This document shows, one piece after another, positions 46,521-61,391 of a stretch of 64,000 bases of DNA (the first letter of the stretch is position 1; every line of letters starts with the position of its first letter). Origin of the DNA: Deltaproteobacteria bacterium HGW-Deltaproteobacteria-19 (lineage in GTDB: Bacteria; Desulfobacterota; Syntrophia; Syntrophales; PHBD01); NCBI GenBank assembly GCA_002841865.1, contig PHBD01000001.1, forward strand, positions 62,001 to 126,000, written 5' to 3'. A program made the position numbers and the translations under genes. The notes below the pieces were generated by a model. It was not told the origin of the DNA. It made no database searches and saw only the letters and a program-made list of their open reading frames with translations.

Positions 46521-49223
46521 ATGCCGCTTGCTGTTTTCTACTTCCAGCTTCACCAGCCGCTCAGGCTCCACCCGGAGCGGGACAAGTTCCTCTGGGACGA
46601 GCAGAACCAGGCGATTTTCGAGAAGGTGGCGGAGAAGTGCTATCTTCCCGCAGTGGAGATGTTCACGGACCTGATCGCACACTATCCCCGCTTCAAGATC
46701 GCCCTCGGCATGTCCGGCACGTTTATGGAGCAGGCACAGGAGTACCGACCCGAGGTGATCCAGGCCCTCCAGGCTCTTCGTGACGCCGGGCAGGAGGGGG
46801 AGCGGGTGGAGTTTCTCAGCGAGACGTACTACCACTCCCTGACCAGCCTCTTCGACGATCCGCGGAAACAGGAATTCCGGGACCAGGTCTCCCTGCACCG
46901 GGACATGATCCGGAAGCTCTTCGGCGTGTTTCCCACGTCCTTCCGGAACACGGAGCTGATGTATAACAACCGCATCGCCGAGGTCGTGGCGGACATGGGA
47001 TACGCCTCCATTCTCTGTGAGAAGCGGGATGACATGTTCTCCGGGAGCGAGGTCCCGATCTCCCCCAACGCCGTCTTCCGGGCTGCCGGCTCGCCCCTCA
47101 TCGTTCTTCCCCGCAACCGGGAGCTGAGCGATGACGTTGCCTTCCGCTTTCCCCACCAGCCCATCCTGCCGGAGGTCTACGCGTCCTATATCGCGAAGAT
47201 CGACGGGGAGGCGGTCCTCCTGGGATACGATTTCGAGCACATCGGGGAGCACATCTGGGCCGACAAGGGGATCTTCGATTTCTGGCGCGGACTTCCGGAG
47301 GCCCTGGAGGCTTACGATAACATCATTCCATCCACCCCGACGGAAGTCGCCTCCCTCTTCCGTGAGGCCGACTGCCCCACCGTCGACATTCACGACCTCT
47401 CCACATCCTCCTGGGCCGATGCGGGCAGGGACACCTTCGGATGGCTCGGCAACCCGACCCAGTACGACCTGTTCCAGGACATCCAGATGATGGAGCATCG
47501 GGCCCGGCGGGCCGGGGGGGAGCTGCTCACGAAATGGCGTCAGCTCACCACGTCGGACCACGTCTACTTCATCCACGAGCGGATCGGGGAGGACCATGCC
47601 GTTCACGCCTACTTCAACCCCTACGGGGGCTCCATCGCCCGGCCCACACAGATCCTGACCCGGAAAATCGACGATCTCCAGGTTGCCATGGTGCGCTTCG
47701 AGGTTCTCAGGAAGCGGGAAACCACGGCCATTCTGATGATCACGCCGGAAACTGGGCGGCTGCCCGAGGAAATGGGGGCGCTGGCAAAGTACGTCTCAGG
47801 GAAAAGCGGTGGTCTCGGGGAGGTAGTGTCCGCACTGTGCGAAGGGTTGACGGAGCGCGGAATCGACGTGCACCTGGCCACCCTGAATCTGAAGAAGCGT
47901 TTCCAGCGGGAATCACGACTGGACGATCGGGAGTGGCGGGAAATCCGGTACAAGATCGATGCCGGTCGGATTCACCTGATCAGTTCCTCCATCTTCGAGA
48001 ACAATGCCGGCGCCTATGCCGGAGACATCCTGCGCACGGCTGCGGAGTTCCAGCGGGAGATCGTCAACAGCCTCATCAAGGAAATCCGTGCCAGGCACAA
48101 GGGAAGGCTGATCATCCACAGCCACGACTGGATGGCCGGGGGAGCGATCACGGCTTACGCAGCGGCCACGGGCCTCCCGATCCTTCACACGGTCCACAAC
48201 ATTTTTACCGCCGATCTTCCCCTTGAATACCTGAGTGGAGTGAACCTGTCGAATCTGGAGCCCCTGCTCTACATCAGCGAGGCCTTCGGTCGTCGCTGCA
48301 TCGACTGCCAGGCCACGGCGATAAAGAATGCAACAATCGTCAATTTCGTCGGGGAGAGGTTTCTTCGGGAGGTCGTGGGGGACTATTTCCTGGACCGGCC
48401 CATCGTTCCCCCGAGCGTCCGCCGGGAAGTGAAGGAAAAATATTACTTCGATGCCACACGGGCGATCATCAACGCCCCGGCCTCGAACATGTATCCGGAA
48501 AACTGTGATCTCCTCCCCCGGAAATACGGTCCCGAGGACGATATCCTGGAAGCGAAGCGGGCCAACCGGGTGGAGTTCCAGCGCCGGACGGGCCTGAACG
48601 TAGACCCCGACGCCATCCTGTTCTACTGGCCGTCGCGGCTGGACACCGTTCAGAAGGGGGTGGAACTCCTGGAGGCCGTGGCCGGGCATTTCACGGGGGT
48701 CCACAAGGATGCCCAGATCGCCGTCGTCGCCGATCCCGTGGGCACCGACCGTACCCATGCGGACATCCTGGGGCGGATCGCCTGGAGCTCGGGAGGGCGC
48801 ATCACCTTCCAGCCCTTCAGCGAGGAACTGTCCATGCTCGGATTCGCCGCCGCCTGCGATGTCTTCGGCGCTTCCCTCTACGAGCCCTGCGGCCAGATCG
48901 ACCAGGTGGGCAACCTCTTCGGCTGCACCGCCACGAATCGGGATACGGGAGGATACCACGACAAGATCCGGGAGCTGAGGCTCAAGGTCGACGGCTCACC
49001 CCTTGACGTGGGCAACGGATTTCTCTTCCGGGACTACGACGCAGGAGGGCTCTGGTATGCCCTGGAAAAGAGCCTGGCCTTTCACCGGAAGCCCCCGGAA
49101 GTCCGGGAGGCGCAACTCCGGCGGATCATGCGGGAAGCCCGGGAGCGATACGACCTGGGCGGCATGATCGCCGAATACATGCGGATATACGAACGGCTGA
49201 ACGGAGGCCGGCCCATCTATTAA
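46521..49223 (+). CDS. Fused GH57 glycoside hydrolase and GT5 glycogen synthase
   Basis: The 900-residue protein joins two enzymes. Residues 1 to about 390 are a GH57 alpha-amylase-type domain with FQLHQPLRLHPE, FRNTELMYNN, the nucleophile region GYDFEHIGEH (Glu about 239) and DLSTSSWADAG (Asp about 292). From about residue 415 it is a GT5 glycogen/starch synthase with the ADP-glucose loop KSGGLGEVVSAL, NLKKRF, SHDWMAGGAITA and LYEPCGQIDQ. It probably makes and trims alpha-1,4-glucan. Both active sites look intact. It is divergent from hrpA with its own promoter, and a TiaS-like gene follows 10 bases later. Confidence 0.9.
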   Translation: MPLAVFYFQLHQPLRLHPERDKFLWDEQNQAIFEKVAEKCYLPAVEMFTDLIAHYPRFKIALGMSGTFMEQAQEYRPEVIQALQALRDAGQEGERVEFLSETYYHSLTSLFDDPRKQEFRDQVSLHRDMIRKLFGVFPTSFRNTELMYNNRIAEVVADMGYASILCEKRDDMFSGSEVPISPNAVFRAAGSPLIVLPRNRELSDDVAFRFPHQPILPEVYASYIAKIDGEAVLLGYDFEHIGEHIWADKGIFDFWRGLPEALEAYDNIIPSTPTEVASLFREADCPTVDIHDLSTSSWADAGRDTFGWLGNPTQYDLFQDIQMMEHRARRAGGELLTKWRQLTTSDHVYFIHERIGEDHAVHAYFNPYGGSIARPTQILTRKIDDLQVAMVRFEVLRKRETTAILMITPETGRLPEEMGALAKYVSGKSGGLGEVVSALCEGLTERGIDVHLATLNLKKRFQRESRLDDREWREIRYKIDAGRIHLISSSIFENNAGAYAGDILRTAAEFQREIVNSLIKEIRARHKGRLIIHSHDWMAGGAITAYAAATGLPILHTVHNIFTADLPLEYLSGVNLSNLEPLLYISEAFGRRCIDCQATAIKNATIVNFVGERFLREVVGDYFLDRPIVPPSVRREVKEKYYFDATRAIINAPASNMYPENCDLLPRKYGPEDDILEAKRANRVEFQRRTGLNVDPDAILFYWPSRLDTVQKGVELLEAVAGHFTGVHKDAQIAVVADPVGTDRTHADILGRIAWSSGGRITFQPFSEELSMLGFAAACDVFGASLYEPCGQIDQVGNLFGCTATNRDTGGYHDKIRELRLKVDGSPLDVGNGFLFRDYDAGGLWYALEKSLAFHRKPPEVREAQLRRIMREARERYDLGGMIAEYMRIYERLNGGRPIY

Positions 49224-49233
49224 GGAAAGGCAC

Positions 49234-49953
49234 ATGCGCATTTACATCGGATTTGACGATACGGACAATCTGGAGGCGGATTTCGGAACGGGAAAGGTGG
49301 CCCGCCGATTCGCATCACGCGTACCGGCGGAGGCCGGGATCTGGGGCGTCGTCCGCCAGCAGCTTCTGGTGGACCCCCGCATTCCCTATACGTCGCACAA
49401 CAGCTCCGCCTGCATGGTCCTGGATCTCCCCGACCCGTCCGCGCTGGATGATCTGGTGCGGCAGGCGGCGGAGCACATCGAAGCGGTTTCCTCGCCGGGA
49501 AGCGACCCGGGGCTCTGCATCGTCCGGGAAGGGGATCCGGTCCTGGCGGCGCTGATGGAACTCGGCCGTAGCTGCACCATGCGGCTGGTGAAACAGGGCG
49601 AGGCCGTCGAAGCCGCAGGAAAGGCCCATCTATCCGGGCACGGCGGGACAAACGATGGAATTATCGGCGCCGCGGCCGCCGTCGGCCTCACCGCCTCAGG
49701 CTGGAGCGGCCGCTTCATCGAATATGCATTGCTGCGATCCATGCCGGACCCGGTCACTGTTTCGGCGTTGGAAGGGAAGGGAATGCGAGTGGTTTCGCTC
49801 GATCGGGACGCCCTGTTTCCCCGTCCCGAAGATGTCGTGCACACGAAGGGCTGGCTCAGGCCAAGGCTGTGGGGATCCGTCGCCGTCCTGCCGGTCTTGC
49901 CGGCGGGGCCCGGCGAGTGGGTGACGATGGGAGAGAAGAGAAACAAATCGTAA
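49234..49953 (+). CDS. TiaS-like DDTD-motif protein
   Basis: The 239-residue protein begins MRIYIGFDDTDNLEADFGTG, with the (I/G)-DDTD-x-GT motif of the phosphate-handling domain of archaeal tRNA(Ile2)-agmatinylcytidine synthase (TiaS). Next come RIPYTSHNSSACM and HGGTNDGIIGAAAAVGL, typical of small bacterial relatives that lack the other TiaS domains. TiaS uses ATP to put agmatine on C34 of tRNA-Ile2; bacteria use lysine and TilS instead, so the function of these homologues is unknown. It is 10 bases from the fused glucan enzyme gene and 18 bases before the 72-residue gene. Confidence 0.75.
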   Translation: MRIYIGFDDTDNLEADFGTGKVARRFASRVPAEAGIWGVVRQQLLVDPRIPYTSHNSSACMVLDLPDPSALDDLVRQAAEHIEAVSSPGSDPGLCIVREGDPVLAALMELGRSCTMRLVKQGEAVEAAGKAHLSGHGGTNDGIIGAAAAVGLTASGWSGRFIEYALLRSMPDPVTVSALEGKGMRVVSLDRDALFPRPEDVVHTKGWLRPRLWGSVAVLPVLPAGPGEWVTMGEKRNKS

Positions 49954-49971: not shown

Positions 49972-50190
49972 ATGGCAGGGAAGATTTTTTACCGGGAGCG
50001 GAGGAAGGTCGGCGAAAAGGAGAAGAAGCCCCGTTTCAAGCTCGTCGCCATCGCCGGCGTTGACATGCGGTTTTACAGCGAGCATCTCCGGAAGAAGGAA
50101 CTGGAGGACATCGCGAAAGCCGTGGGGGCGGAGCTTGTCCTCCTGGAGTCGGGCAAGGACAAGGACGACGAGATCGAGCTGAAGGACTGA
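49972..50190 (+). CDS. Small basic protein preceding the Mo-storage-like gene
   Basis: A very strong AGAGGAGGTGC site precedes this 72-residue product. It is highly charged (17 Lys/Arg in the first half, an acidic tail SGKDKDDEIELKD) and has no cysteine, membrane helix or signal. The middle, FKLVAIAGVDMRFYSEHL, looks like one beta-alpha unit. I do not recognise a family. Because it directly precedes the storage-like gene with a 16-base gap, it may be a partner or assembly factor, which is inference. Confidence 0.7.
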   Translation: MAGKIFYRERRKVGEKEKKPRFKLVAIAGVDMRFYSEHLRKKELEDIAKAVGAELVLLESGKDKDDEIELKD

Positions 50191-50206
50191 AGGAGAGACG
50201 AAATCC

Positions 50207-51037
50207 ATGGCCCTTTTCAGAGAACGGGACGGACGACGTCTCCATGTGAAGAGTCGATTGATGGGGGAGAGCCTCGTGGGGAAGGCCTTTCTGGAAGGCC
50301 TGAAGGTCGCACCGCAGCAGAGGCTCTTCCCCGACGTGAATGTGATCAAGATCGGCGGGCAGTCCATCTGCGACCGCGGGATCAAAGCCCTGCCGGAACT
50401 GATCCGGGAGATTGTCGCCTGCAAGAAGAAGCACAAGATGCTCGTCACCACCGGCGGCGGCACCCGAAGCCGGCATATCTATTCCATTGGCCTGGAGCTG
50501 GGCATGCCCACGGGGATCATCGCGAAGTTCGGAAGCTCCATCTCCGAGCAGAACGCGCTTCTGGTCTCCACCCTCCTTTCTTCCTGGGGCGGCATCAAAA
50601 TCGGCCATGACGAGGTCATCAAGCTGTCGACCTACTTTGCCCAGGATTGCATCCCCGTCATGCACGGGATGCCGCCCTACGACTATTTCGCCCTGCCGTC
50701 ATCGAAGAGCAGGATCCCCATCCACCGGACGGATGTGGGCACACTGATCCTGGCGGACCTGATCGGCGCCCGGAGCTGCATCTTCGTCAAGGACGAACGG
50801 GGGCTCTACACGGACGACCCGAAGAAGAACGACAAGGCCGAGTTCATCCCCAAAATCAGCGTCGGGGAACTCTTGGAGCGAAACCTGGAGGACCTGATCA
50901 TCGAGCGGCCCTGCCTCGAGATCCTCCGGAACAGTGAGGTTTTGGAAAAAATCCAGGTGATCAACGGCCTGGAGAAGGGGACCCTCACGAAGGCCCTTGC
51001 CGGAAAACCGGTCGGTACGGTGATTTCCAAGACATGA
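50207..51037 (+). CDS. Molybdenum-storage-like amino acid kinase fold protein
   Basis: The 276-residue product matches the Azotobacter molybdenum storage protein and UMP-kinase superfamily: VNVIKIGGQSICDRG, LVTTGGGTRSRHIYSIGLELG, GMPPYDYFALPSSKSRIPIH, DERGLYTDDPKKND, and at the C-terminus VINGLEKGTLTKALAGKPVG. These blocks recur in the MoSto alpha and beta subunits. In Azotobacter these form a cage that stores polyoxomolybdate or tungstate with ATP. Only one such gene is present here, so it may form a homomeric cage. The stop overlaps the next kinase gene. An ordinary uridylate kinase is the alternative but lies further in sequence. Confidence 0.82.
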   Translation: MALFRERDGRRLHVKSRLMGESLVGKAFLEGLKVAPQQRLFPDVNVIKIGGQSICDRGIKALPELIREIVACKKKHKMLVTTGGGTRSRHIYSIGLELGMPTGIIAKFGSSISEQNALLVSTLLSSWGGIKIGHDEVIKLSTYFAQDCIPVMHGMPPYDYFALPSSKSRIPIHRTDVGTLILADLIGARSCIFVKDERGLYTDDPKKNDKAEFIPKISVGELLERNLEDLIIERPCLEILRNSEVLEKIQVINGLEKGTLTKALAGKPVGTVISKT

Positions 51038-52224
51038 AGAAGCAGGCTCTTGAACAGAACACCGGTGACGCCGCAAAGACCGGTCGGCCGCTGATGGAGG
51101 AGATCCGCCGACTCAAGCGGAAGGTTGCCCGCCTGGAAAAAGCGGAAATGGAGCGCGGCAGGGCGGAGGCGGCACGGCGGGAGAGTGAGGAAAAATACCG
51201 GACCCTCATCGAGTCGACAGGGGACCTGATTTTCATCGTCAACGAAAAAGGGATCTACACCTACGTCAACCCGCAGTTCGAGCGTGCAACGGGCTATTCC
51301 GTCCGGGATCTCATCGGCCAGCCGTTCACGTTTCTCGTTGCTCCGGAGCACATCGAAAGTACGATCCGCCGCTTCAGGAAAGGCATCCGGGGAGAATATA
51401 CGCTCCCCTACGATGCGCACCTCGTCCACCGGAACGGGGAGAAGATCCCCGTCGAATTCCTGGTCACGACCCAGTATGACGCGACGGGCCGGGCCGTGGG
51501 GCGATTCGGCATCGGGCGCGACATCACCGAGCGAAAGCGAGCCGAGGAGATCCTGCGGCAGCAGAGCCGGCAGCTCCGGATTCTCTCCGCGAGGCTCACG
51601 GAGGCGGAGGAGTCGGAGCGGAAGCGGATCGCCCGGGAGCTGCACGACCAGGTGGGGCAGAACCTGACGGTGGTGGGAATCAACCTGAGCATTGTGAGAT
51701 CGAAGCTTCCGGCGGAAGAGATGAAAATGCTCCGCGCCCGGCTGGAAGACTCGATGGTCCTGGTCGAGGAGATCACCGAATTCACCCGAGGTCTGATGAG
51801 CGATCTCCGGCCGCCGGACATGGACATCCTGGGACTGGTCGCATCCATCGGCTGGTTTGCGGAGCGTTTCTCGATGCGGACCGGTGTGGACGTCGTTGTG
51901 GAGGGAGAGGAAATCCAGCCCCGGCCCAACCCGGACGTGGAGAACAACGTGTTCCGGATCGCCCAGGAAGTCCTGAACAACGTTGCCAAACACGCCCGGG
52001 CGAGACGTGTCGGGATCCGGATCGAGGCCTGCGACGCCATTCTCCGGGTCGTCATCACCGACGACGGCATCGGGTTCGATCCGTCCCGGGTGCGAAGAAT
52101 GGAAGAGCAGGGCGGCTGGGGAATCATGACCATGACCGAGCGCGCCGAGTCGATCGGCGGACGTTTCGTCCTCGAATCGGAGCCCGGCAAGGGAACGTGC
52201 GTGACCTTGGAGGTTCCGCTGTGA
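51034..52224 (+). CDS. Soluble PAS sensor kinase, NarX-type
   Basis: The start overlaps the storage-like gene by four bases (ATGA), so the two are translationally coupled. The 396-residue kinase has a coiled-coil N-terminus, one PAS domain (about 55-165), a HisKA_3 dimerisation region with H-box ARELHDQVGQNLTVVG and an ATPase with DDGIGFDPS and GWGIMTMTERAE. There is no membrane helix, so the signal is intracellular. Its regulator gene overlaps it in turn. Coupling to the storage gene suggests a link to molybdate, tungstate or redox state, not proven. Confidence 0.9.
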   Translation: MKKQALEQNTGDAAKTGRPLMEEIRRLKRKVARLEKAEMERGRAEAARRESEEKYRTLIESTGDLIFIVNEKGIYTYVNPQFERATGYSVRDLIGQPFTFLVAPEHIESTIRRFRKGIRGEYTLPYDAHLVHRNGEKIPVEFLVTTQYDATGRAVGRFGIGRDITERKRAEEILRQQSRQLRILSARLTEAEESERKRIARELHDQVGQNLTVVGINLSIVRSKLPAEEMKMLRARLEDSMVLVEEITEFTRGLMSDLRPPDMDILGLVASIGWFAERFSMRTGVDVVVEGEEIQPRPNPDVENNVFRIAQEVLNNVAKHARARRVGIRIEACDAILRVVITDDGIGFDPSRVRRMEEQGGWGIMTMTERAESIGGRFVLESEPGKGTCVTLEVPL

Positions 52225-52865
52225 CGATTACGGTTTTGCTGGCCGACGATCACACGATCGTCCGCGACGGTCTCAAGTACCTTCTGGAAGCCGACGGCGA
52301 CATCAAGGTCATCGGCGAGGCCGCCAACGGCCGGGATGCGGTCCGGGCCGTCCGCAAACTGCAGCCCGATGTCGTGATCATGGACATTCTCATGGCGGAC
52401 CTGAACGGCATCGAGGCGACGGAGGAGATCTGCCGGGAATCGCCGCAGACGCGGGTCGTGATCCTCTCGATGCAGTCCTCGTCGGAGTCCATCCTGCGGG
52501 CCCTCCGGGCAGGAGCCAGGGGATACCTCTTCAAGGAGTCCGCCGGCCGGGAACTGATCCAGGCCATCCATGCCGTCTGCGCCGGGCATCGCTACCTGAG
52601 CGCCAAGGTCTCCGATCAGGTCGTAGGCGCGTACCTGAAGGAGGAAGGGTTCAAAGATCCCCTGGCCGTGCTCAGCAATCGGGAGCGGGAGGTCCTGCAA
52701 CTGGTGGTGGAGGGCAGGACCAGCGCCCAGATCGCCGGAACCCTCTTTCTCTCGGTGAAAACCATCGAGACCTATCGAAGCCGCCTGATGCAGAAGCTGG
52801 GCATCCGCGACATCCCCGGCCTCATCAAGTTTGCCATCCAGCAGGGAGTCACCTCCCTGGAATAA
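52221..52865 (+). CDS. NarL/FixJ family response regulator
   Basis: The GTG start at 52221 overlaps the kinase stop (GTGA) and follows TTGGAGG by seven bases. The 214-residue product has a receiver (LLADDHTIVRDGL, VIMDILMADLNG, FKESAG) and a LuxR-type HTH (LSNREREVLQLVVEG, SVKTIETYRSRLMQKLGI). It is the natural partner of the upstream kinase and ends the run of coupled genes. Its target promoters are unknown. Confidence 0.92.
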   Translation: MTITVLLADDHTIVRDGLKYLLEADGDIKVIGEAANGRDAVRAVRKLQPDVVIMDILMADLNGIEATEEICRESPQTRVVILSMQSSSESILRALRAGARGYLFKESAGRELIQAIHAVCAGHRYLSAKVSDQVVGAYLKEEGFKDPLAVLSNREREVLQLVVEGRTSAQIAGTLFLSVKTIETYRSRLMQKLGIRDIPGLIKFAIQQGVTSLE

Positions 52866-53035: not shown

Positions 53036-53500
53036 ATGTCGAAAGAATACGAGTACCTGGACGACTATGTCCTGGGCGAGAAGATGGTCTCGCCCGCCAG
53101 GACCGTGACGGAGGCGGACATCATCACCTTTGCCGGCCTCACCGGAGACTGGCACCCGCTGCACACGGATGTGGAATACGCCGCCGGAACGCCCTTCAAG
53201 GGCCGGATCGCCCACGGCATGCTGACGCTCTCGATCGGGATGGCCCTGCCGTTCCGCCTGGGACCCTACTCGAGCTACCTGCCGAAGTCGTTCATTGCTT
53301 TTTACGGGATGGAAGAGGTGCGATTCACGGCGCCCACGCGGATCGGCGACACCATCCACTGCGAGGTGGAGGTCGTCGGGATCACGCACAAGGGAAACGA
53401 AAAGGGAATCCTCACCATCCAGAACCGGATCAAGAACCAACATGGGGAAACGGTGGTTTCGTTCGTGATGAAACTCTTCTGCGGGAAGAGACCGCACTGA
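53036..53500 (+). CDS. MaoC family dehydratase
   Basis: The ATG at 53036 follows ACAGGAGGAAAG; the longer frame to 52901 has no support. The 154-residue hot-dog fold protein has the hydratase motif LTGDWHPLHTDVEYA with the conserved Asp and His, then GRIAHGMLTLSIGMAL. MaoC-like enzymes hydrate enoyl-CoA. It precedes the acyl-CoA carboxyltransferase gene by 66 bases, suggesting a shared acyl-CoA pathway. Confidence 0.9.
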   Translation: MSKEYEYLDDYVLGEKMVSPARTVTEADIITFAGLTGDWHPLHTDVEYAAGTPFKGRIAHGMLTLSIGMALPFRLGPYSSYLPKSFIAFYGMEEVRFTAPTRIGDTIHCEVEVVGITHKGNEKGILTIQNRIKNQHGETVVSFVMKLFCGKRPH

Positions 53501-53566
53501 CCGTTACGGATGGAATGGAAAGAGCCGGCCGCCGTTGTGCGGCCAATGACGGAAAGGAGAGCGAAG

Positions 53567-55210
53567 ATGGCTGAGCAACCGGACAAGAAACTGTCCAGGG
53601 CGCAGAAGAAGGAGGCGGAGCACGAGGAGAACCGGCTGTACTGGATGGAAGAGGAGAAGAAGATACACGCCCTCTGGGAGAAGGCCTACAACCCCGGCGG
53701 CGACGTCCAGAACCAGCGCCTGGCCAAGCAGGGGAAAAAGCCCCCGCGCCAGCTCATCCGCCAACTCATCGACCCGGGAACCGAGTTCTTCGAGCTCTCC
53801 CGGGGCGCCGGATTCGGGATCGGCTACGAGGGCGTCGAGGACGTCCCATCCGCCGGCCTCGTGACGGGGATCGGCAAGATCCACGGCAACTGGGTCATGA
53901 TCCTTGCCAACGACAGCCGGGTCACCGCCGGGGCCTACTATCCCATCAGCTGCAAGAAACACCTCCGAGCCCAGGAGATCGCCGAGCGGTGCGGGCTCAA
54001 CTTCGTCTACATCGCCGACTCGGCGGGTGCCTACCTGCCCCTGCAGGACCGCATCTTCCCCGGCCGGAACCAGTTCGGCCACTTCTTCTACAATATGTGC
54101 CGCATGTCGGCGAAGGGACTCAAACAGTATACGCTCAGCACCGGCGGGAACACCGCCGGCGGTGCCTATATCGTCTACCTCGCCTGCGAATCCATCATGA
54201 TCGACGGCATGTCCTACTCCTTCCTTGGCGGCCCGCCCATGGTGAAGTCGGCCATCGGCGAGACCGTCTCCATGGAGGACCTGGGGGGCGCCAAGGTCCA
54301 CACACACATCTCCGGAGGGGCGGACCACTTCGTGAAGTCCCAGGACGAGGGCATCGAAAAGCTCCGGGAACTTTTGGCATTCGACCCGCAGCAGACCCTG
54401 TACGCCGACCGGCGCAGGCCCGCCGACCCGAAGGTTCCCGCCGACCACCTCTACAGGGTCCTGCCGAAGGAGACAAATAAAGGAATCAACGTGCGGGAGG
54501 TCATCGCCGCCATCGCCGACGACAGCTGGTTCAGCGAGTACAAGCGGCAATACAACATCGGACGCGGGGACAACATCGTCTGCGGAAAGATCTTCCTGAA
54601 GGGCCTGCCCGTGGGTGTCATCGCCAGCAACAACAACGGCGTCATCTTCGTGGACTCCGCCCGCAAGGCCATCGAGTGGGTGATCCGGTGCTGCACCATG
54701 AAGATCCCCCTCCTCTACATCCAGAATTCCCCCGGCTACATGGTGGGCACGGCGGAGGAGTACGCCGGCATCGGGAAGTACGGTTCCGGCATGGTCCGGG
54801 CCTGCGCCTGTGCGGAAGTGCCCCGGATCCAGTGGATCATCGGGCCGGACCACGGGGCCGCGAACTTCGGCATGTCCGGACGCACCTTCGATCCGCTCTT
54901 CATCTTCGCTACCATGCGGTCGCGGACCTCGGTCATGTCGGGAGACACGGCAGGCTTCATCCTCACCAGCCTGGAACGCGTCAACCGGAAGAAGCGGGGC
55001 GAGGAGATGGATGAAGACGCGGCGGCGAAGTTCCGGCAGATGATGATCGACAAGTACAATCGGGAGGCGCACCCCTTCTACATGGAATCGCGGCTTTTCA
55101 ACGACGGAACGCTGCCCCTCGGCCAGTGCCGGGACGCCCTGGCGCTGGGGTTCGAGGTGGCGCTCTTGCAGCCGATTCGGGAGTCGAATTTTGGCAACTT
55201 CAAATTCTGA
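53567..55210 (+). CDS. Acyl-CoA carboxylase carboxyltransferase subunit
   Basis: The start at 53567 follows GGAAAGGAGAG. The 547-residue protein matches the carboxyltransferase (beta) fold of propionyl-, methylcrotonyl- or glutaconyl-type enzymes: RAQEIAERCGLNFVYIADSAGAYLP in part, GGNTAGGAYIVYLACE and NSPGYMVGTAEEYAG near 400. It transfers carboxyl between biotin and an acyl-CoA, or acts in a decarboxylase. The biotin carboxylase, biotin carrier and sodium-pump subunits are not in the window. The N-terminal 25 residues are highly charged and not part of the domain. Confidence 0.88.
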   Translation: MAEQPDKKLSRAQKKEAEHEENRLYWMEEEKKIHALWEKAYNPGGDVQNQRLAKQGKKPPRQLIRQLIDPGTEFFELSRGAGFGIGYEGVEDVPSAGLVTGIGKIHGNWVMILANDSRVTAGAYYPISCKKHLRAQEIAERCGLNFVYIADSAGAYLPLQDRIFPGRNQFGHFFYNMCRMSAKGLKQYTLSTGGNTAGGAYIVYLACESIMIDGMSYSFLGGPPMVKSAIGETVSMEDLGGAKVHTHISGGADHFVKSQDEGIEKLRELLAFDPQQTLYADRRRPADPKVPADHLYRVLPKETNKGINVREVIAAIADDSWFSEYKRQYNIGRGDNIVCGKIFLKGLPVGVIASNNNGVIFVDSARKAIEWVIRCCTMKIPLLYIQNSPGYMVGTAEEYAGIGKYGSGMVRACACAEVPRIQWIIGPDHGAANFGMSGRTFDPLFIFATMRSRTSVMSGDTAGFILTSLERVNRKKRGEEMDEDAAAKFRQMMIDKYNREAHPFYMESRLFNDGTLPLGQCRDALALGFEVALLQPIRESNFGNFKF

Positions 55211-55528: not shown

Positions 55529-56725
55529 ATGACTGAATATGACTACTGGAAGATATTTCCCCGCATGCCCCGGAAGGTCATGATTGGTGACATCACGATC
55601 CGCGACGGCTTTCAGCACGAGGAAAAGTTTCTCTCCACGGCCGCCAAGATCTTCTACGGTGAAGAGATCATCCTGGCGGGCTGCCGGGAGCTGGAGGTCA
55701 CCAACCTTGGAAATCCCGCAGCCATTCCCCAGTTCCGGGACGCCGAGGAGGTCCTGGCCCACTTCCGGAGCGATCGCTTCCGGAAGCGCTGCACCCGGCA
55801 GAGCATCCCTTACGAAGAGCTGGTCTTCAGCGCCGTAACGATCCGCGAGAACGCGGTGGACCGGGCCATCGAGCTGAAGAAGCGGGGCATCGGCCCGGAC
55901 CGTGTCCTGATGATGGTCTCTACGGATCCCGAGCACCACTTCGCGAACTCCGGCACAACCCTGTCCCAGTACTGGCGGGAGGCGGAGCGGTGCATCCGGA
56001 AGTGCCGCGACGTGGGCATCAAGATGTGCGGCGTCGTGAGCACCATCTGGGGAAGCCCCATCAGCGGCGCCACGAGGCTGGAAGACGCTGTGGAATTCAC
56101 GAAGCGCTGGTTCTCCATCGGCGCCAACGACATCGAGCACGCGGACCACGACGGCTCCGCCTCGGCGGCGGAGGTCTACCGGTACTTTTCCATGGTCATG
56201 GACGCCATGCCGGACCCGGAAGCCCACCTCTGCCATCTCCACGAGACGAAGCGGGTCGCTTCCTCCTCCATCCTCGCGGCACTCCATGCCGGGATCGCCC
56301 GGTTCGAAGGGACGCTGGGAGGCCTGGGAGGGCAGCCGGCCAACTTCCTCGACGACTGCCCCGTCCGGGGTACCGGGGAATACTACTACAAGGACCACCG
56401 TTACGTGGGCCTCATCACGATGGAGGACCTGCTCGTCCAGATCGACGAACTGGGAATCGAGCACGGCTACGACGTGGACCGTGTTCTGTGGCTGGGCAAC
56501 AAGATGGAGAAAACCATCGGCCGCCGCCTCCGATCGGAGGCCATCTACAACGGGAGGACGGAGAAGGGAGGGAATCCCCAGTTCCGCCGGCTCGGCCTTG
56601 GGAAGCTGATCGAGAAAGCAGGGGAGAAGCCGGGGCAGTTGGTCCCGTCCGAGTGGCCGCCACAGGCCGTCCTGCCGGAGAAATGGGGACCCGGGGCATG
56701 GGAGGTCCCGCCTATTTCCGGATGA
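55529..56725 (+). CDS. HMG-CoA lyase-like TIM-barrel protein
   Basis: The 398-residue protein has the HMGL-like signature block GDITIRDGFQHEEKF near 20 and the metal-binding H-x-H in LCHLHETKRVAS, where most relatives have HND. It then has a glycine-rich GTLGGLGGQPANF. These TIM-barrel enzymes cleave or condense acyl-CoAs with keto acids. The substrate is not clear; HMG-CoA lyase, citramalate synthase or a pyruvate carboxyltransferase-like role are possible. It ends 14 bases inside the convergent ABC ATPase gene on the other strand. Confidence 0.8.
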   Translation: MTEYDYWKIFPRMPRKVMIGDITIRDGFQHEEKFLSTAAKIFYGEEIILAGCRELEVTNLGNPAAIPQFRDAEEVLAHFRSDRFRKRCTRQSIPYEELVFSAVTIRENAVDRAIELKKRGIGPDRVLMMVSTDPEHHFANSGTTLSQYWREAERCIRKCRDVGIKMCGVVSTIWGSPISGATRLEDAVEFTKRWFSIGANDIEHADHDGSASAAEVYRYFSMVMDAMPDPEAHLCHLHETKRVASSSILAALHAGIARFEGTLGGLGGQPANFLDDCPVRGTGEYYYKDHRYVGLITMEDLLVQIDELGIEHGYDVDRVLWLGNKMEKTIGRRLRSEAIYNGRTEKGGNPQFRRLGLGKLIEKAGEKPGQLVPSEWPPQAVLPEKWGPGAWEVPPISG

Positions 56726-57803
56726 GATGGACCGCCGTGGCTTTGAAAGAGGAGCAGACCGCACTTCCTTCCGCGAGCGTGAGGTTCTCCACGGAAGATG
56801 CCGTCACGTAGGCCGTAAGCGGAAAGCCGCAGTCGATGTTTACCTTGTAAAAAAGTCCCATGGGGATCACCTTCACGATCCGGCCGGGAAGGACGTTCCG
56901 GGCGCTGGCCGACTCCGTCGGACTTCCCGTTGAAAGCGTGACCAGTTCGGGCCGGATGCAGCAAAGCACCGGATCTCCGACCTGGCCGACTCCGACCGAT
57001 TCGATTTTCCCACCCGGAACCTGAACGGTCACCGTACCCGCGCCCGACCCGACGATCTTCCCGCTCAGAACCGTTTCCACTCCGACGAACGAAGCCACGA
57101 ATTCATCCTGCGGCCGGTTCATGACGTCCCCGGGATCGCCGATCTGAACGATCCGGCCGTCCTTCATAATCGCCATCCGGCTGGATAGTCGAAGCGCTTC
57201 GACACGGTCGTGGGTGGCCATCACGGCTGTGGTTTTCGTCTCCCGGAGGATTCTCTGAAGATCTTCCATCAGGCCTTCCCGGGTGGGCGGATCGAGGGAG
57301 GAGAAAGGCTCGTCCAGAAAAATGACTTCCGGCCCCACGGCGAAGGCGCGGGCCAGGCTCGTCCTCTGGGCCTCACCGCCGGAGAGCTTCCGGGCATGGC
57401 GCCCCTTCAGGTTCCCGATGCCGAAGCGCTCCATGCATTCGCCGACGATCCGGCCGATGTTGCTGCGGTTTACGCCGTGAAGTCTCAGTCCGGAAGCCAC
57501 GTTGGACTCCACCGTTCCGTCGAATAGAAGCGGTTCCTGAAATACCATGGAGATCTTGCGCCGGTACCCCATCAGGCCGTTTCCCTCCATGACGGATGCT
57601 CCCCTGAACGACAGGGAGCCCCGATATCTGGGAAGCAGGCAGGCCAGCACCAGAAGGAGGGTCGATTTCCCGGCCCCGTTGGGACCGATGAGAGAGAGAA
57701 ACTCTCCGTCCAGGACTTCGAAGCCGGGGATGTCCAGAACCCGGACCCCTCCCCGCCGGACTTCGAGATCGCGAATCTCCAGAATGGAAACGGCGTTTAT
57801 CAT
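56712..57803 (-). CDS. tupC: Tungstate/molybdate ABC transporter ATPase (TupC/ModC-like)
   Basis: Walker A GPNGAGKSTLLL, signature LSGGEAQRTSLARA, Walker B VIFLDEPFSSLD and H-loop ATHD are intact. A C-terminal extension from about 230 to 363 includes TOBE-like oxyanion-binding modules (VLSGKIVGSGAGTVTVQV, CCIRPELVTL). The ATG overlaps the permease stop by four bases. It energises the permease TupB and the binding proteins upstream. The tup name rests on operon context and the Tup-type binding proteins; molybdate specificity is possible. Confidence 0.85.
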   Translation of the reverse strand: MINAVSILEIRDLEVRRGGVRVLDIPGFEVLDGEFLSLIGPNGAGKSTLLLVLACLLPRYRGSLSFRGASVMEGNGLMGYRRKISMVFQEPLLFDGTVESNVASGLRLHGVNRSNIGRIVGECMERFGIGNLKGRHARKLSGGEAQRTSLARAFAVGPEVIFLDEPFSSLDPPTREGLMEDLQRILRETKTTAVMATHDRVEALRLSSRMAIMKDGRIVQIGDPGDVMNRPQDEFVASFVGVETVLSGKIVGSGAGTVTVQVPGGKIESVGVGQVGDPVLCCIRPELVTLSTGSPTESASARNVLPGRIVKVIPMGLFYKVNIDCGFPLTAYVTASSVENLTLAEGSAVCSSFKATAVHLIRK

Positions 57804-58498
57804 CGCGGCCTCTGCTGCTGCTGGATTGCTGTGAGCAGGGAGTTGATGGCGAAGGCCAGGAGAAGGAGAATGATCCCCAGCGCAATTGCGATGTCGAAGT
57901 TCCCCTTGCCCGTTTCCATGACCGTCGCCGTCGTCAGGACGCGCGTGTATCCTTTGATGTTGCCACCGACCATGATGGAGGCGCCGACCTCGGAGATGAC
58001 ACCGCCGAACCCCGCCATCACCGCCGCGAGCAGGGGGAGCTTTGCCTCCTTCATGAGCATCCAGACCATCTGGAGCCGGGTGGCGCCCAAGGCAAGGATC
58101 TGGAGGCGCAGGTTTCTCGGGAGGTGCTGAATGGCTGCCAGCGTAATGCCCATGACGATCGGTGTGGCGATGATCGCCTGGGCGAGAACAATGGCCGTTG
58201 GCGTGTAGAGGATCTCCATGAACCCCAAGGGGCCGTTCCGCCAGAGGAAGATGGAGACGAAGAGGCCCACGACGACGGGGGGGAGTCCCATGCCTGTATT
58301 GATGAGACTGATGACGAACCGCTTACCCGGGAACTCCGTCAGGGCAACGGTGGTGCCCACGGACATGCCGAAAATCAGGCTGATCCCCGTGGCCGCTCCG
58401 GATACCGCCAGGGAAAGCCAAGTGATGCCGAGAACTTCCGGATCGAGTGTGAAGAGCAGAGAGATTGCCTGTTTGATGCCCTCAAGAATCAGGTCCAA
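57800..58498 (-). CDS. tupB: Tungstate ABC transporter permease (TupB-like)
   Basis: The TTG start follows GGAAGGT. The 232-residue protein has about five to six membrane helices with the ABC permease EAA-type loop LGATRLQMVWMLMKEAKLPLLA and the C-terminal GGVISEVGASIMVGGN segment typical of TupB. It forms the membrane channel of the transporter and is translationally coupled to the ATPase gene. A terminator-like hairpin lies between it and the first binding protein gene. Confidence 0.87.
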   Translation of the reverse strand: MDLILEGIKQAISLLFTLDPEVLGITWLSLAVSGAATGISLIFGMSVGTTVALTEFPGKRFVISLINTGMGLPPVVVGLFVSIFLWRNGPLGFMEILYTPTAIVLAQAIIATPIVMGITLAAIQHLPRNLRLQILALGATRLQMVWMLMKEAKLPLLAAVMAGFGGVISEVGASIMVGGNIKGYTRVLTTATVMETGKGNFDIAIALGIILLLLAFAINSLLTAIQQQQRPR

Positions 58499-58526
58499 AA
58501 TGTACCTTCCATCATTGACGGTTCAC

Positions 58527-58570
58527 AGAAAAACCCGCCGCGACGAGATGTCGTGCATCGCCGCGACGGG
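58527..58570 (-). terminator. Terminator-like hairpin between tupA and tupB
   Basis: On the minus-strand transcript a 13-bp stem (58558-58570 with 58534-58546, two G-U pairs, 11-base loop) is followed by UUUUUCU (58533-58527). This is an intrinsic terminator in form. Inside the operon it could reduce transporter expression relative to the binding proteins. Confidence 0.7.
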
Positions 58571-58638
58571 CACGGCCTCAGTCCTGCCCTGATCGGGTTA
58601 AAAACAGGCCGGGGGATGGGCCGCCGAAGTCGAAACCG

Positions 58639-59511
58639 CTACTTGCCCAGGGACTCCTCCTTTTTTCCGGCGTCCGGGAAGAACAGGGGCGATCCGAATT
58701 TCTCCACACCGAACTTGCCGATGATCTTCTGGGTATCTTTGGAAAGAATAAAATCGGCGAAGGCCTTGGCGCCGTCTGCGTTGATCTTCTTGAACTTGGT
58801 CGGATTCACCGGGATTACCGAGTAGACGTTCAGCAGGATCGCGTCTCCCTGGTTGAGGATATCCATCCCCAGATTCTTCTTCAGGGCCAGGTACGTCCCA
58901 CGGTCCGCCAGGGTGTAGGCCTTTTTCTCGGCGGCAACGTTCAGGGTCTGTCCCATGCCGAGGCCCGTCTGCTGGTACCACTTTTCCTTCTCGGGATTGA
59001 TGCCGGCGGCTTTCCAGATACCCTTCTCCTTTGCGTGGGTCCCCGAGTTGTCACCCCTCGACATGAAAAGGGATTTCGAGAGGGCGATATTCTTGAAGGC
59101 GGCCGTTGCGCCCTTGGTCATTTTGATTGTTGCCGGATCCGCCGGGGGGCCGACGACGATGAAGTCGTTGTGCATGACCAGGGTCCGGGCGGTACCGTTC
59201 CCCTGGGCCATGAACGCCTTCTCCGCCGCAGGAGAGTGGACCAGGAGCACATCCGCTTCGCCCTTTGCGCCCATGGCCATGGCCTGGCCGGAGCCGACGG
59301 CGATGGTTTTCACGAAGTAGCCCGTCTTCTTCTCGAAGATGGGAATCAGGACGTCCAGAAGGCCCGAGTCCTGGGTACTGGTCGTGGTGGCCAGGATCAG
59401 GTTCTTCATTTTTCCCGGTGCCGCGGAGGCGTTTGCTGCCATTCCAACGGCCAGGACCAGCGTGAGGAACACGGCCAGCACGGCCGTCCGGACATAGGAT
59501 CGTTTCATCAT
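58639..59511 (-). CDS. tupA: Tungstate-binding protein TupA, canonical
   Basis: The 290-residue precursor has a signal peptide (about 1-30) and the TupA ligand motif TTSTQDSGLLDVLI (43-56), then GSGQAMAMGAKGEADVLLVH and NDFIVVGPPADPA. This is the hallmark set of TupA family binding proteins, which capture tungstate with very high affinity. It follows TupA-like paralogue two by 21 bases and has its own GGAGG site. Molybdate affinity cannot be excluded. Confidence 0.9.
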   Translation of the reverse strand: MMKRSYVRTAVLAVFLTLVLAVGMAANASAAPGKMKNLILATTTSTQDSGLLDVLIPIFEKKTGYFVKTIAVGSGQAMAMGAKGEADVLLVHSPAAEKAFMAQGNGTARTLVMHNDFIVVGPPADPATIKMTKGATAAFKNIALSKSLFMSRGDNSGTHAKEKGIWKAAGINPEKEKWYQQTGLGMGQTLNVAAEKKAYTLADRGTYLALKKNLGMDILNQGDAILLNVYSVIPVNPTKFKKINADGAKAFADFILSKDTQKIIGKFGVEKFGSPLFFPDAGKKEESLGK

Positions 59512-59532
59512 TGTTTTGACCTCCTTGATGGG

Positions 59533-60375
59533 TTATCGCTTCGATTTCCACTCGTCGGAATTGGGGAAGAACAGCGGACTGCCATACTTGTCCTTGCCGA
59601 AGTCCCGAACAATGAGCTGCCCTTTCCCCGGTGAGGTCAGCCAGGCGATGAAGGTCGCCGCATCTTTCGCGTTGACCTGCGGGAACTTCTGCGGGTTGAC
59701 CGGAATCAGCGAGATGAAGTTGAGAAGCGCTTCGTCGCCCTCGACCAGCACAGCCAGTTTGATGTCCTTCTGCAGGGACAGGTAAGTCGCCCGGTCGATG
59801 AAGGTGTAGGCCTTCTGCTGATCGGCATAACGCAGCGTGGCGACGTTCCCCTCGGAGCCCTTCTCGTAGATTTTATACCAGGCGCCGGCAGGTTTGATGC
59901 CGGCCTTCTCCCAGATGACCATCTCCGCCACGTGGGTTCCCGATTTGTCGCCGCGACTGATGAAGAGAACATTCTTCGAGGAGAGTGCCTTCAGGGCTTC
60001 TGCGGCCTTTTTCATTCCCCTGATCCCCGCCGGGTCCGCAGCCGGGCCGACAATGATGAAATCGTTGTACATGAAGGGAATGCGTTTCGTGCCGTACCCG
60101 TCTTTGATGAATTTCTCCTCGAGGGACTTGGCATGGACCATGACGAGATCCACGTTTCCCTTCGTGGCGATTTTCAGGGCCGCACCCGTCCCGGCCCCTA
60201 CATGACGGACCCGGATGCCCGTATCCTGCTCGAAGCGGTCTTCCAGGAGAGACACGATCCCGGAATCGATCGGACCGATCGTGCTGGAAAGGAGAAGGAA
60301 ACCCTCACCCGCCAGGCACGGCCCGGTAAAGAGAAACAGAAGGAAGAGGACGGATGTGAAAACGGCTTTTTTCAT
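59533..60375 (-). CDS. Divergent TupA-type binding protein
   Basis: This 280-residue paralogue has a signal peptide (about 1-22) and the same body (GAGTGAALKIATKGNVDLVMVH, NDFIIVGPAADPAG). Its ligand loop reads SSTIGPIDSGI (30-40) instead of TTSTQDSGL, so ligand preference may differ. It lies between the regulator gene, which stops four bases upstream of its start, and the canonical TupA gene. Its ribosome site AAAGGAGC sits within the regulator's last codons, so translation is coupled. Confidence 0.85.
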   Translation of the reverse strand: MKKAVFTSVLFLLFLFTGPCLAGEGFLLLSSTIGPIDSGIVSLLEDRFEQDTGIRVRHVGAGTGAALKIATKGNVDLVMVHAKSLEEKFIKDGYGTKRIPFMYNDFIIVGPAADPAGIRGMKKAAEALKALSSKNVLFISRGDKSGTHVAEMVIWEKAGIKPAGAWYKIYEKGSEGNVATLRYADQQKAYTFIDRATYLSLQKDIKLAVLVEGDEALLNFISLIPVNPQKFPQVNAKDAATFIAWLTSPGKGQLIVRDFGKDKYGSPLFFPNSDEWKSKR

Positions 60376-60378
60376 GAT

Positions 60379-61311
60379 TCAGCTCCTTTCGGGATCGATG
60401 GTGTGCAGAACCAGGCCTGCACGCTGGAAATCGTACCCTCCCAGCTTTTCCACGTTTTGCTGGAAGGACCGGCTCTGCAGGCCCTCGAGAAAGGCCTGAA
60501 CGCCCCTGCTGAAAAAGGTGGCCTTCCTGAGGACCATGTCGAAGCTCTCAGTGGCCAGGGTTGCCATATGCAGACCCAGAAGCCGTGCCACGGCGGTGGA
60601 GGCGATTCCTGTGTCCGCCTCCCCCGTCAGTACGGCCAGGCCGACGTCCATGTGGGTGAATACCTCCCGGTCATAGCCGGGGAGAGAGTCCGGAGACAGA
60701 TTAGCCTTCTTGATCTGATAATCCAGCAGGATGCGTGTTCCGGCGCCGGGCTGGCGATTCACGATCCGCGGCCGGATCCGGAGAAGGTCATCGAATCCCC
60801 GGATTTCGAGGGGATTTCCTTTCGCTGCTACCAGGCCGATCTCCCGGTTGAAGAGGTGGACCACGACCCAGCCGGCGCCCTGCAGGTGGGGAGCAAGGGC
60901 CGCAGGCGTGTTGTATTCCCCGCTTTCCGGATCGATGAGATGTGTCCAGGCGAGATCGGTATAACCGTTACCCAGCGCCCTCAAGCCATCGGCACTCCCG
61001 GTGCTGGCCGTGAAGACGTAAAAATCGGGATGAGCGGCCTTCAGACTTGCCAGGAGCATGTCGAGAACGGGATCGTTGCTTCCCGCTGCGAGCAAGGCGC
61101 CCTCGATCCGGGTACTCTTCCGGCGTGCCTCCTGGAGAGCTTCGCCGGCCTGGCTCCGGATCCACTCGTCGATCAGCGCCTTGGGGAAGAGCCATTTGCC
61201 CGTCACCCGGGTCGCCGGGATACGGCGCGCTTTGATGAGGGCGTAGACCTGCTTTTCGTTGATATCCAGATAGCCGGCCACTTCCTTCGTATTCAGAAGC
61301 TCGTTCGGCAT
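60379..61311 (-). CDS. Excisionase-HTH regulator with PBP-like ligand domain
   Basis: The ATG at 61311, six bases after GGGGAG, is preferred to one at 61368. The 310-residue protein has an excisionase-type winged HTH (LLNTKEVAGYLDINEKQVYA) and a PBP-like domain from about residue 70: ASTGSADGLRALGNGYTDLA, then NRQPGAGTRILLDYQIKKA and GYDREVFTHMDVGLAVLTG. This layout is seen in oxyanion-responsive regulators; the fused periplasmic-binding-like domain probably senses molybdate or tungstate. It is the first gene of the tup operon and likely controls it. Confidence 0.85.
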   Translation of the reverse strand: MPNELLNTKEVAGYLDINEKQVYALIKARRIPATRVTGKWLFPKALIDEWIRSQAGEALQEARRKSTRIEGALLAAGSNDPVLDMLLASLKAAHPDFYVFTASTGSADGLRALGNGYTDLAWTHLIDPESGEYNTPAALAPHLQGAGWVVVHLFNREIGLVAAKGNPLEIRGFDDLLRIRPRIVNRQPGAGTRILLDYQIKKANLSPDSLPGYDREVFTHMDVGLAVLTGEADTGIASTAVARLLGLHMATLATESFDMVLRKATFFSRGVQAFLEGLQSRSFQQNVEKLGGYDFQRAGLVLHTIDPERS

Positions 61312-61391
61312 GGCATCTCCCCGCGTGAGGTTTGCCCCGTCTATAACGAAAAAGAGAACGGGAATCAAGACAAAGACCGACTTATTATTAC

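Follow-up and report, generated by a model that had tools for sequence, protein, structure and literature searches.

What a metal-storage protein might do with half of its usual genes, and which neighbouring genes act with it, is the question raised by a locus of Deltaproteobacteria bacterium HGW-Deltaproteobacteria-19 (Desulfobacterota). Classical MoSto is an (alpha-beta)3 assembly of two paralogous subunits, a closed hexameric cage that holds about 100 Mo or W atoms and is loaded in an ATP-dependent manner. The window analysed here, a stretch of 64,000 nucleotides to which all coordinates refer, carries a single MoSto-like gene. The original prediction grouped this gene with a 72-aa protein of novel type and a histidine kinase-response regulator pair as a self-contained metal storage and sensing module. 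All four reading frames were recovered where they had been placed, with sensible ribosome-binding sites, and so were the overlaps ATGA (51034-51037) between the MoSto-like and kinase genes and GTGA (52221-52224) between the kinase and regulator genes. The earlier account had left out a further member of the group formed by the 72-aa and MoSto-like genes: a TiaS-like gene, which ends 18 bp before the former begins. The features of the locus are the following.

49234..49953, plus strand: TiaS-TCKD-like protein of 239 aa with a DDTD motif (NCBIfam, PDB and homologue matches)
49972..50190, plus strand: small protein of 72 aa, a conserved family without Pfam, NCBIfam or PDB relative
50207..51037, plus strand: single-subunit MoSto-family protein of 276 aa with amino-acid-kinase fold (PDB sequence match, VIA, tree)
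51034..52224, plus strand: PAS-HisKA_3-HATPase histidine kinase of 396 aa (domain profiles)
52221..52865, plus strand: NarL-type response regulator (Response_reg, GerE) with a GTG start at 52221 (domain profiles)
53036..53500, plus strand: MaoC-type hydratase, the opening gene of the block that includes the kinase-regulator pair (synteny)
53510..55210, plus strand: acyl-CoA carboxyltransferase, mmdA-like (synteny)
56712..57803, minus strand: TupC/WtpC-like ABC ATPase with a TOBE domain (Pfam and NCBIfam profiles)
57800..58498, minus strand: TupB-like permease (NCBIfam)
58639..59511, minus strand: first TupA-like tungstate-binding protein (NCBIfam)
59533..60375, minus strand: second TupA-like tungstate-binding protein (NCBIfam)
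60379..61368, minus strand: HTH_17 and PBP_like regulator (domain profiles), recurring near clade I loci (defined below)

The TiaS-like gene is preceded, at a distance of 10 bp, by the gene of a 900-aa protein (46521-49223) whose C-terminal part is glycogen-synthase-like; this gene is kept in the sister species. A search of positions 40000-64000 against Rfam for riboswitches gave no matches.

Family, copy number and residues of the 276-aa protein

Compared with PDB sequences, the 276-aa protein scored 229 bits against MoSto beta and 155 bits against MoSto alpha, while UMP kinases reached at most 33 bits. Its AlphaFold2 model (pLDDT 83) aligned with MoSto beta at a VIA Z of 32.5 (2.0 Å over 239 residues) and with alpha at a Z of about 31, against 24 for UMP kinases; identity to MoSto beta in the aligned structures, where the window's side is the predicted model, was 44-45%. 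A maximum-likelihood tree set the UMP kinases apart with support of 100/100 and placed the clade of the window protein (100/97) within the MoSto family. This clade, which contains the window-type single MoSto-like loci, is called clade I; a second single-gene clade, clade II, with proteins 47-50% identical to the window protein, joined it at 94/77. Scores, structure and tree thus agree with the assignment first made from the sequence, to MoSto and not to the uridylate kinases, and the homologues did not group with the latter. PyrH was also tried as an identity and rejected, as the protein obtained 32.6 bits against a model cut-off of 243.9 and the tree places it elsewhere; PyrH shares the amino-acid-kinase fold but forms a separate branch, and the source genome encodes a true PyrH (309 bits) in a separate gene.

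That there is one such gene, as originally proposed, was confirmed by a search of the source genome, in which no second paralogous subunit of the (alpha-beta)3 kind was found. The copy number was likewise one in each of the 40 genomes of the class that gave a match. On one contig (L070:7184-10214) both clades are represented, each by a MoSto-like gene with its own small-protein gene.

The window protein has in common with MoSto (MosA/MosB of Azotobacter vinelandii and Azospirillum) its family, its fold, the ATP-site residues and the Mo/W theme. The ATP-site lysine is kept as K48 (K45 in alpha, K42 in beta) and is invariant across clades I and II, and the motifs GGGTRSRH, PPY and RTD are also kept. 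The metal ligands differ. Alpha His140, which we take to belong to the three-histidine W3 (tungsten) site, aligns with Tyr in the 49 clade I sequences compared. Alpha Glu129 and His156, reported to bind the metal-oxide cluster (a Mo8 polyoxometalate) covalently (PMC4504029), are replaced in the same 49 sequences by Gly or Ser and by Asp, respectively. Clade I has invariant or near-invariant histidines of its own, H13, H134, H153 and H173, of which H134 aligns with alpha His130. Judged from its sequence, the window protein is a member of the MoSto family, yet one that departs from two classical features, the pair of subunits (mosA plus mosB) and the alpha cluster ligands. Since these ligands are not conserved, metal storage is a role that we infer from ancestry and gene context.

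The small protein and the TiaS-like protein

The 72-aa reading frame is a real gene, because 63 homologues could be aligned with invariant columns and a comparison of the two genomes of the genus gives a dN/dS of about 0.02. The family follows the pattern M-x-G-K-I-F-Y-R-E-R ... P-R-F ... H-L-R-K-x-E-L-x-x-I-A, with M1, F6, R8, R10, P20 and H38 invariant. Searches against Pfam, NCBIfam, PHROGs and PDB sequences returned no relative, and no TOBE match was obtained. A beta-beta-alpha-beta fold is predicted with moderate confidence (pLDDT 75); structure searches with this model gave scattered weak rows only (TsaB, NDUFS4, YciH), with a best Foldseek E of 0.15 and a best VIA Z of 4.3.

Counting clade I loci whose sequence extends 400 bp or more in both directions, 77 of 78 have the small gene within 1.5 kb of the MoSto-like gene. 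Where strand and spacing were measured, the two genes shared a strand in every one of 78 loci, with a median gap of 54 bp. Clade II loci also have it next to the MoSto-like gene (8/8), arranged tail-to-tail, so that proximity holds in two different arrangements. The two genes co-occur as well. In a sample of 395 genomes from across the source phylum, 22 contain a single full MoSto-like gene, and all 22 encode the small protein (Fisher p 4e-34, a value that ignores shared ancestry). The predicted link between the 72-aa and MoSto-like genes therefore extends to nearly every genome (77/78, 8/8, 22/22). At the level of the class, the small protein is encoded in 38 of 40 MoSto genomes; in the other two, the MoSto match is partial or lies at a contig start. 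In two loci (L142:8316-8929 and L072:9320-9959) the small-protein gene is doubled in tandem beside one MoSto-like gene.

The TiaS-like protein was present in 21 of the 22 single-MoSto genomes, sometimes on another contig (Fisher p 8e-27, again with shared ancestry ignored); in the remaining one, G509, the small and MoSto-like genes occur and the TiaS-like gene was undetected. The same phylum also contains tandem loci with two paralogous MoSto-family genes (L130-L133), some with TupB/TupC nearby, and in contrast to the window their genomes have neither the small protein (0/4) nor the TiaS-like protein (0/4). Clade I loci with the small gene span Desulfobacterota, Synergistota and one Bacillota MAG. 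Culturable carriers include Desulfosarcina widdelii (L094) and Desulforhopalus singaporensis (L082). Four loci whose record titles place them outside Desulfobacterota (three from Synergistota, one from a Heliobacteriaceae MAG) each contain the small, TiaS-like and MoSto-like genes, and TupA genes are found at three of them.

TiaS is the archaeal tRNA-Ile2 agmatidine synthetase, with a TCKD domain, and it uses ATP. The window's TiaS-like protein shares with it about 164 N-terminal residues and the DDTD motif, but it is only 239 aa long, matches over residues 1-164 alone and falls far below the TiaS cut-off (NCBIfam TiaS: E 5e-6, 25.2 bits against 600; PDB TiaS: E 2e-5). Pfam gave no match above cut-off, TiaS_TCKD scoring 12.8 against 27. 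The protein is conserved in its own right, with a mean column identity of 67% over 13 homologues and D8, D9, T10, D11, G18, T19, G20 and K21 invariant among them. In clade I its gene is adjacent in 35 of 54 loci. At clade II loci and at loci that lack MoSto (L117, L119, L120, L121, L134, L138 and L140), the TiaS-like and small genes are separated by a gene on the other strand, recognised by eye from its sequence as that of a PadR-like regulator.

Metal context and possible function

A TupABC-like tungstate transporter is encoded on the minus strand near the MoSto-like gene (56712-60375), and the source genome has five AFOR_N (AOR-family) genes. The HTH_17 and PBP_like protein beside the transporter is probably an oxyanion-responsive regulator of the Tup genes. 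Two adjoining TupA-type binding proteins per TupBC pair (58639-60375, minus strand) constitute a doubling that is repeated in many relatives. Among clade I loci flanked by 5 kb or more in both directions, 25 of 45 had a Mo/W gene within 10 kb, counting TupA/B, ModA, ModE, the PBP-like regulator, MOT1, FdhE, formate dehydrogenase and FmdE. TupA was rejected as a specific marker of the locus: 112 of 155 genomes in the class carry it, and its presence alone is thus not specific.

From ancestry and gene context, the best reading of the locus, and one that we hold to be fairly probable, is a single-subunit, ATP-using store or buffer of tungstate or molybdate with a dedicated small partner. Tungstate and/or molybdate would enter through the Tup (or Mod) transporter, and the MoSto-like protein, most likely a homo-oligomeric cage as in MoSto, would take up the oxyanion with ATP, tungsten being the favoured metal. 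The 72-aa protein would contact it as a dedicated partner (cap, adaptor or assembly/loading factor), present where the second MoSto subunit is missing, and the TiaS-like protein would be a third member, probably ATP-using, that contributes an ATP-dependent step. The buffered metal would then be released to cofactor synthesis and so serve pterin metalloenzymes, among them formate dehydrogenase and the AOR-family enzymes. A bolder version, which we offer tentatively, is that anaerobes have an ATP-driven tungstate store made of three proteins, one that has spread between phyla. A homomeric MoSto cage would, together with the 72-aa protein, replace the MosA/MosB heteromer, the TiaS-like protein would be an ATP-using factor for loading or release, and the metal-oxide chemistry would be a different one that proceeds without the known alpha ligands.

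Such a store would differ from the systems described so far. Azospirillum mosBA genes are not accompanied by the small and TiaS-like partners, and the branch of the window protein occurs in anaerobes with tungsten transporters, unlike the diazotrophs that host MoSto. In W-dependent anaerobes, the one protein for which tungstate buffering is known is Tub, a TOBE protein (PMC11980592). The TOBE-domain storage proteins of the Tub/Mop type (PMC11980592) resemble our proposal in the putative W-storage role in anaerobes with TupABC, but their fold is unrelated and they do not use ATP. According to a 2019 paper, no homologues of MoSto were known from databases (PMC6448029); the literature searched, with subscription papers and preprints outside its scope, yielded no report of MoSto homologues in Desulfobacterota. 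The single-gene branch with its new small partner points to a new version of the machinery for W/Mo handling. Found in syntrophs, sulfate reducers and Synergistota, it is a candidate tungsten store for organisms reliant on W enzymes, and it prompts the question why classical MoSto has a second subunit.

The absence of the known cluster ligands could also mean that the protein builds no metal-oxide clusters and instead acts as an ATP-dependent chaperone or sensor of oxyanions that binds single tungstate or molybdate ions. The small and TiaS-like proteins would then hand the metal on to cofactor synthesis or gate the transporter. The conserved Mo/W gene context would suit this, as would two MoSto-less genomes in which the small and TiaS-like genes persist beside Tup genes (L117 of G143 and L134 of G418). 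We nevertheless find it somewhat unlikely, given the close overall kinship to MoSto, including MoSto beta, which is itself without the alpha ligands.

As G143 and G418 keep the small protein without MoSto, it may act with something else. Its partner could be the TiaS-like protein or the Tup transporter, with shared regulation as the only link to the MoSto-like gene, and in most clade II loci the small gene indeed lies on the strand of the TiaS-like gene, opposite to MoSto. This explanation appears unlikely: adjacency in clade I is tighter to the MoSto-like gene than to the TiaS-like gene, and G509 combines small and MoSto-like genes with no TiaS-like gene detected.

It is improbable that the protein is a metabolite kinase of the amino-acid-kinase superfamily, akin to UMP kinase, that lies near metal genes by chance. 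The fold would allow it, and public plasmid records (NZ_CP032327 and others) annotate related MosB genes of Azospirillum as 'uridine kinase', but the low PyrH score, the separate PyrH gene, the tree and the recurrence of Tup, Mod and formate dehydrogenase neighbours all argue against it. This annotation implies that members of the MoSto family may hide under kinase names in databases.

The kinase-regulator pair

The domain content of the pair (PAS, HisKA_3 and HATPase_c in the kinase; Response_reg and GerE in the regulator) agrees with the NarX/NarL type proposed for it. Its coupling to the MoSto-like gene, in contrast, did not hold up. Of 54 clade I loci outside the window with 2.5 kb or more of sequence in both directions, a single one, that of the sister species, has the kinase-regulator pair within 3 kb of the MoSto-like gene. 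Kinase orthologues in four other genomes (76% identity in G005 and G143, 65% in G089 and 59-65% in G116) are followed by the regulator and then by MaoC in all four cases (L166, L167, L168 and L170), with the carboxyltransferase after MaoC in the three stretches long enough to include it; none of the four contains a MoSto gene. Hence, of the four-gene adjacency suggested as a check in related genomes, the small/MoSto-like part is kept widely and the kinase-regulator part is restricted to the sister species.

As the pair sits elsewhere with the MaoC and carboxyltransferase genes, the ATGA overlap is best seen as the junction of two separate conserved blocks. On the strength of synteny we reject the two-component system as a part of the module and judge it a chance neighbour, unrelated to metal handling, that belongs with the downstream acyl-CoA genes. 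The kinase-MoSto overlap is seen in this genus only, in both of its genomes, and may at most reflect genus-specific co-expression of the MoSto-like gene with the pair. Although the ATGA and GTGA overlaps could provide such co-expression there, a self-contained storage-and-sensing unit made of the MoSto-like store, the small protein and the two-component system is highly improbable in view of this distribution.

In several relatives (among L161-L165, from G116, G006, G085, G076 and G088) the kinase orthologue gave two matches in a single open frame, covering residues ~9-181 and ~139-396, which suggests a second PAS domain or an insertion.
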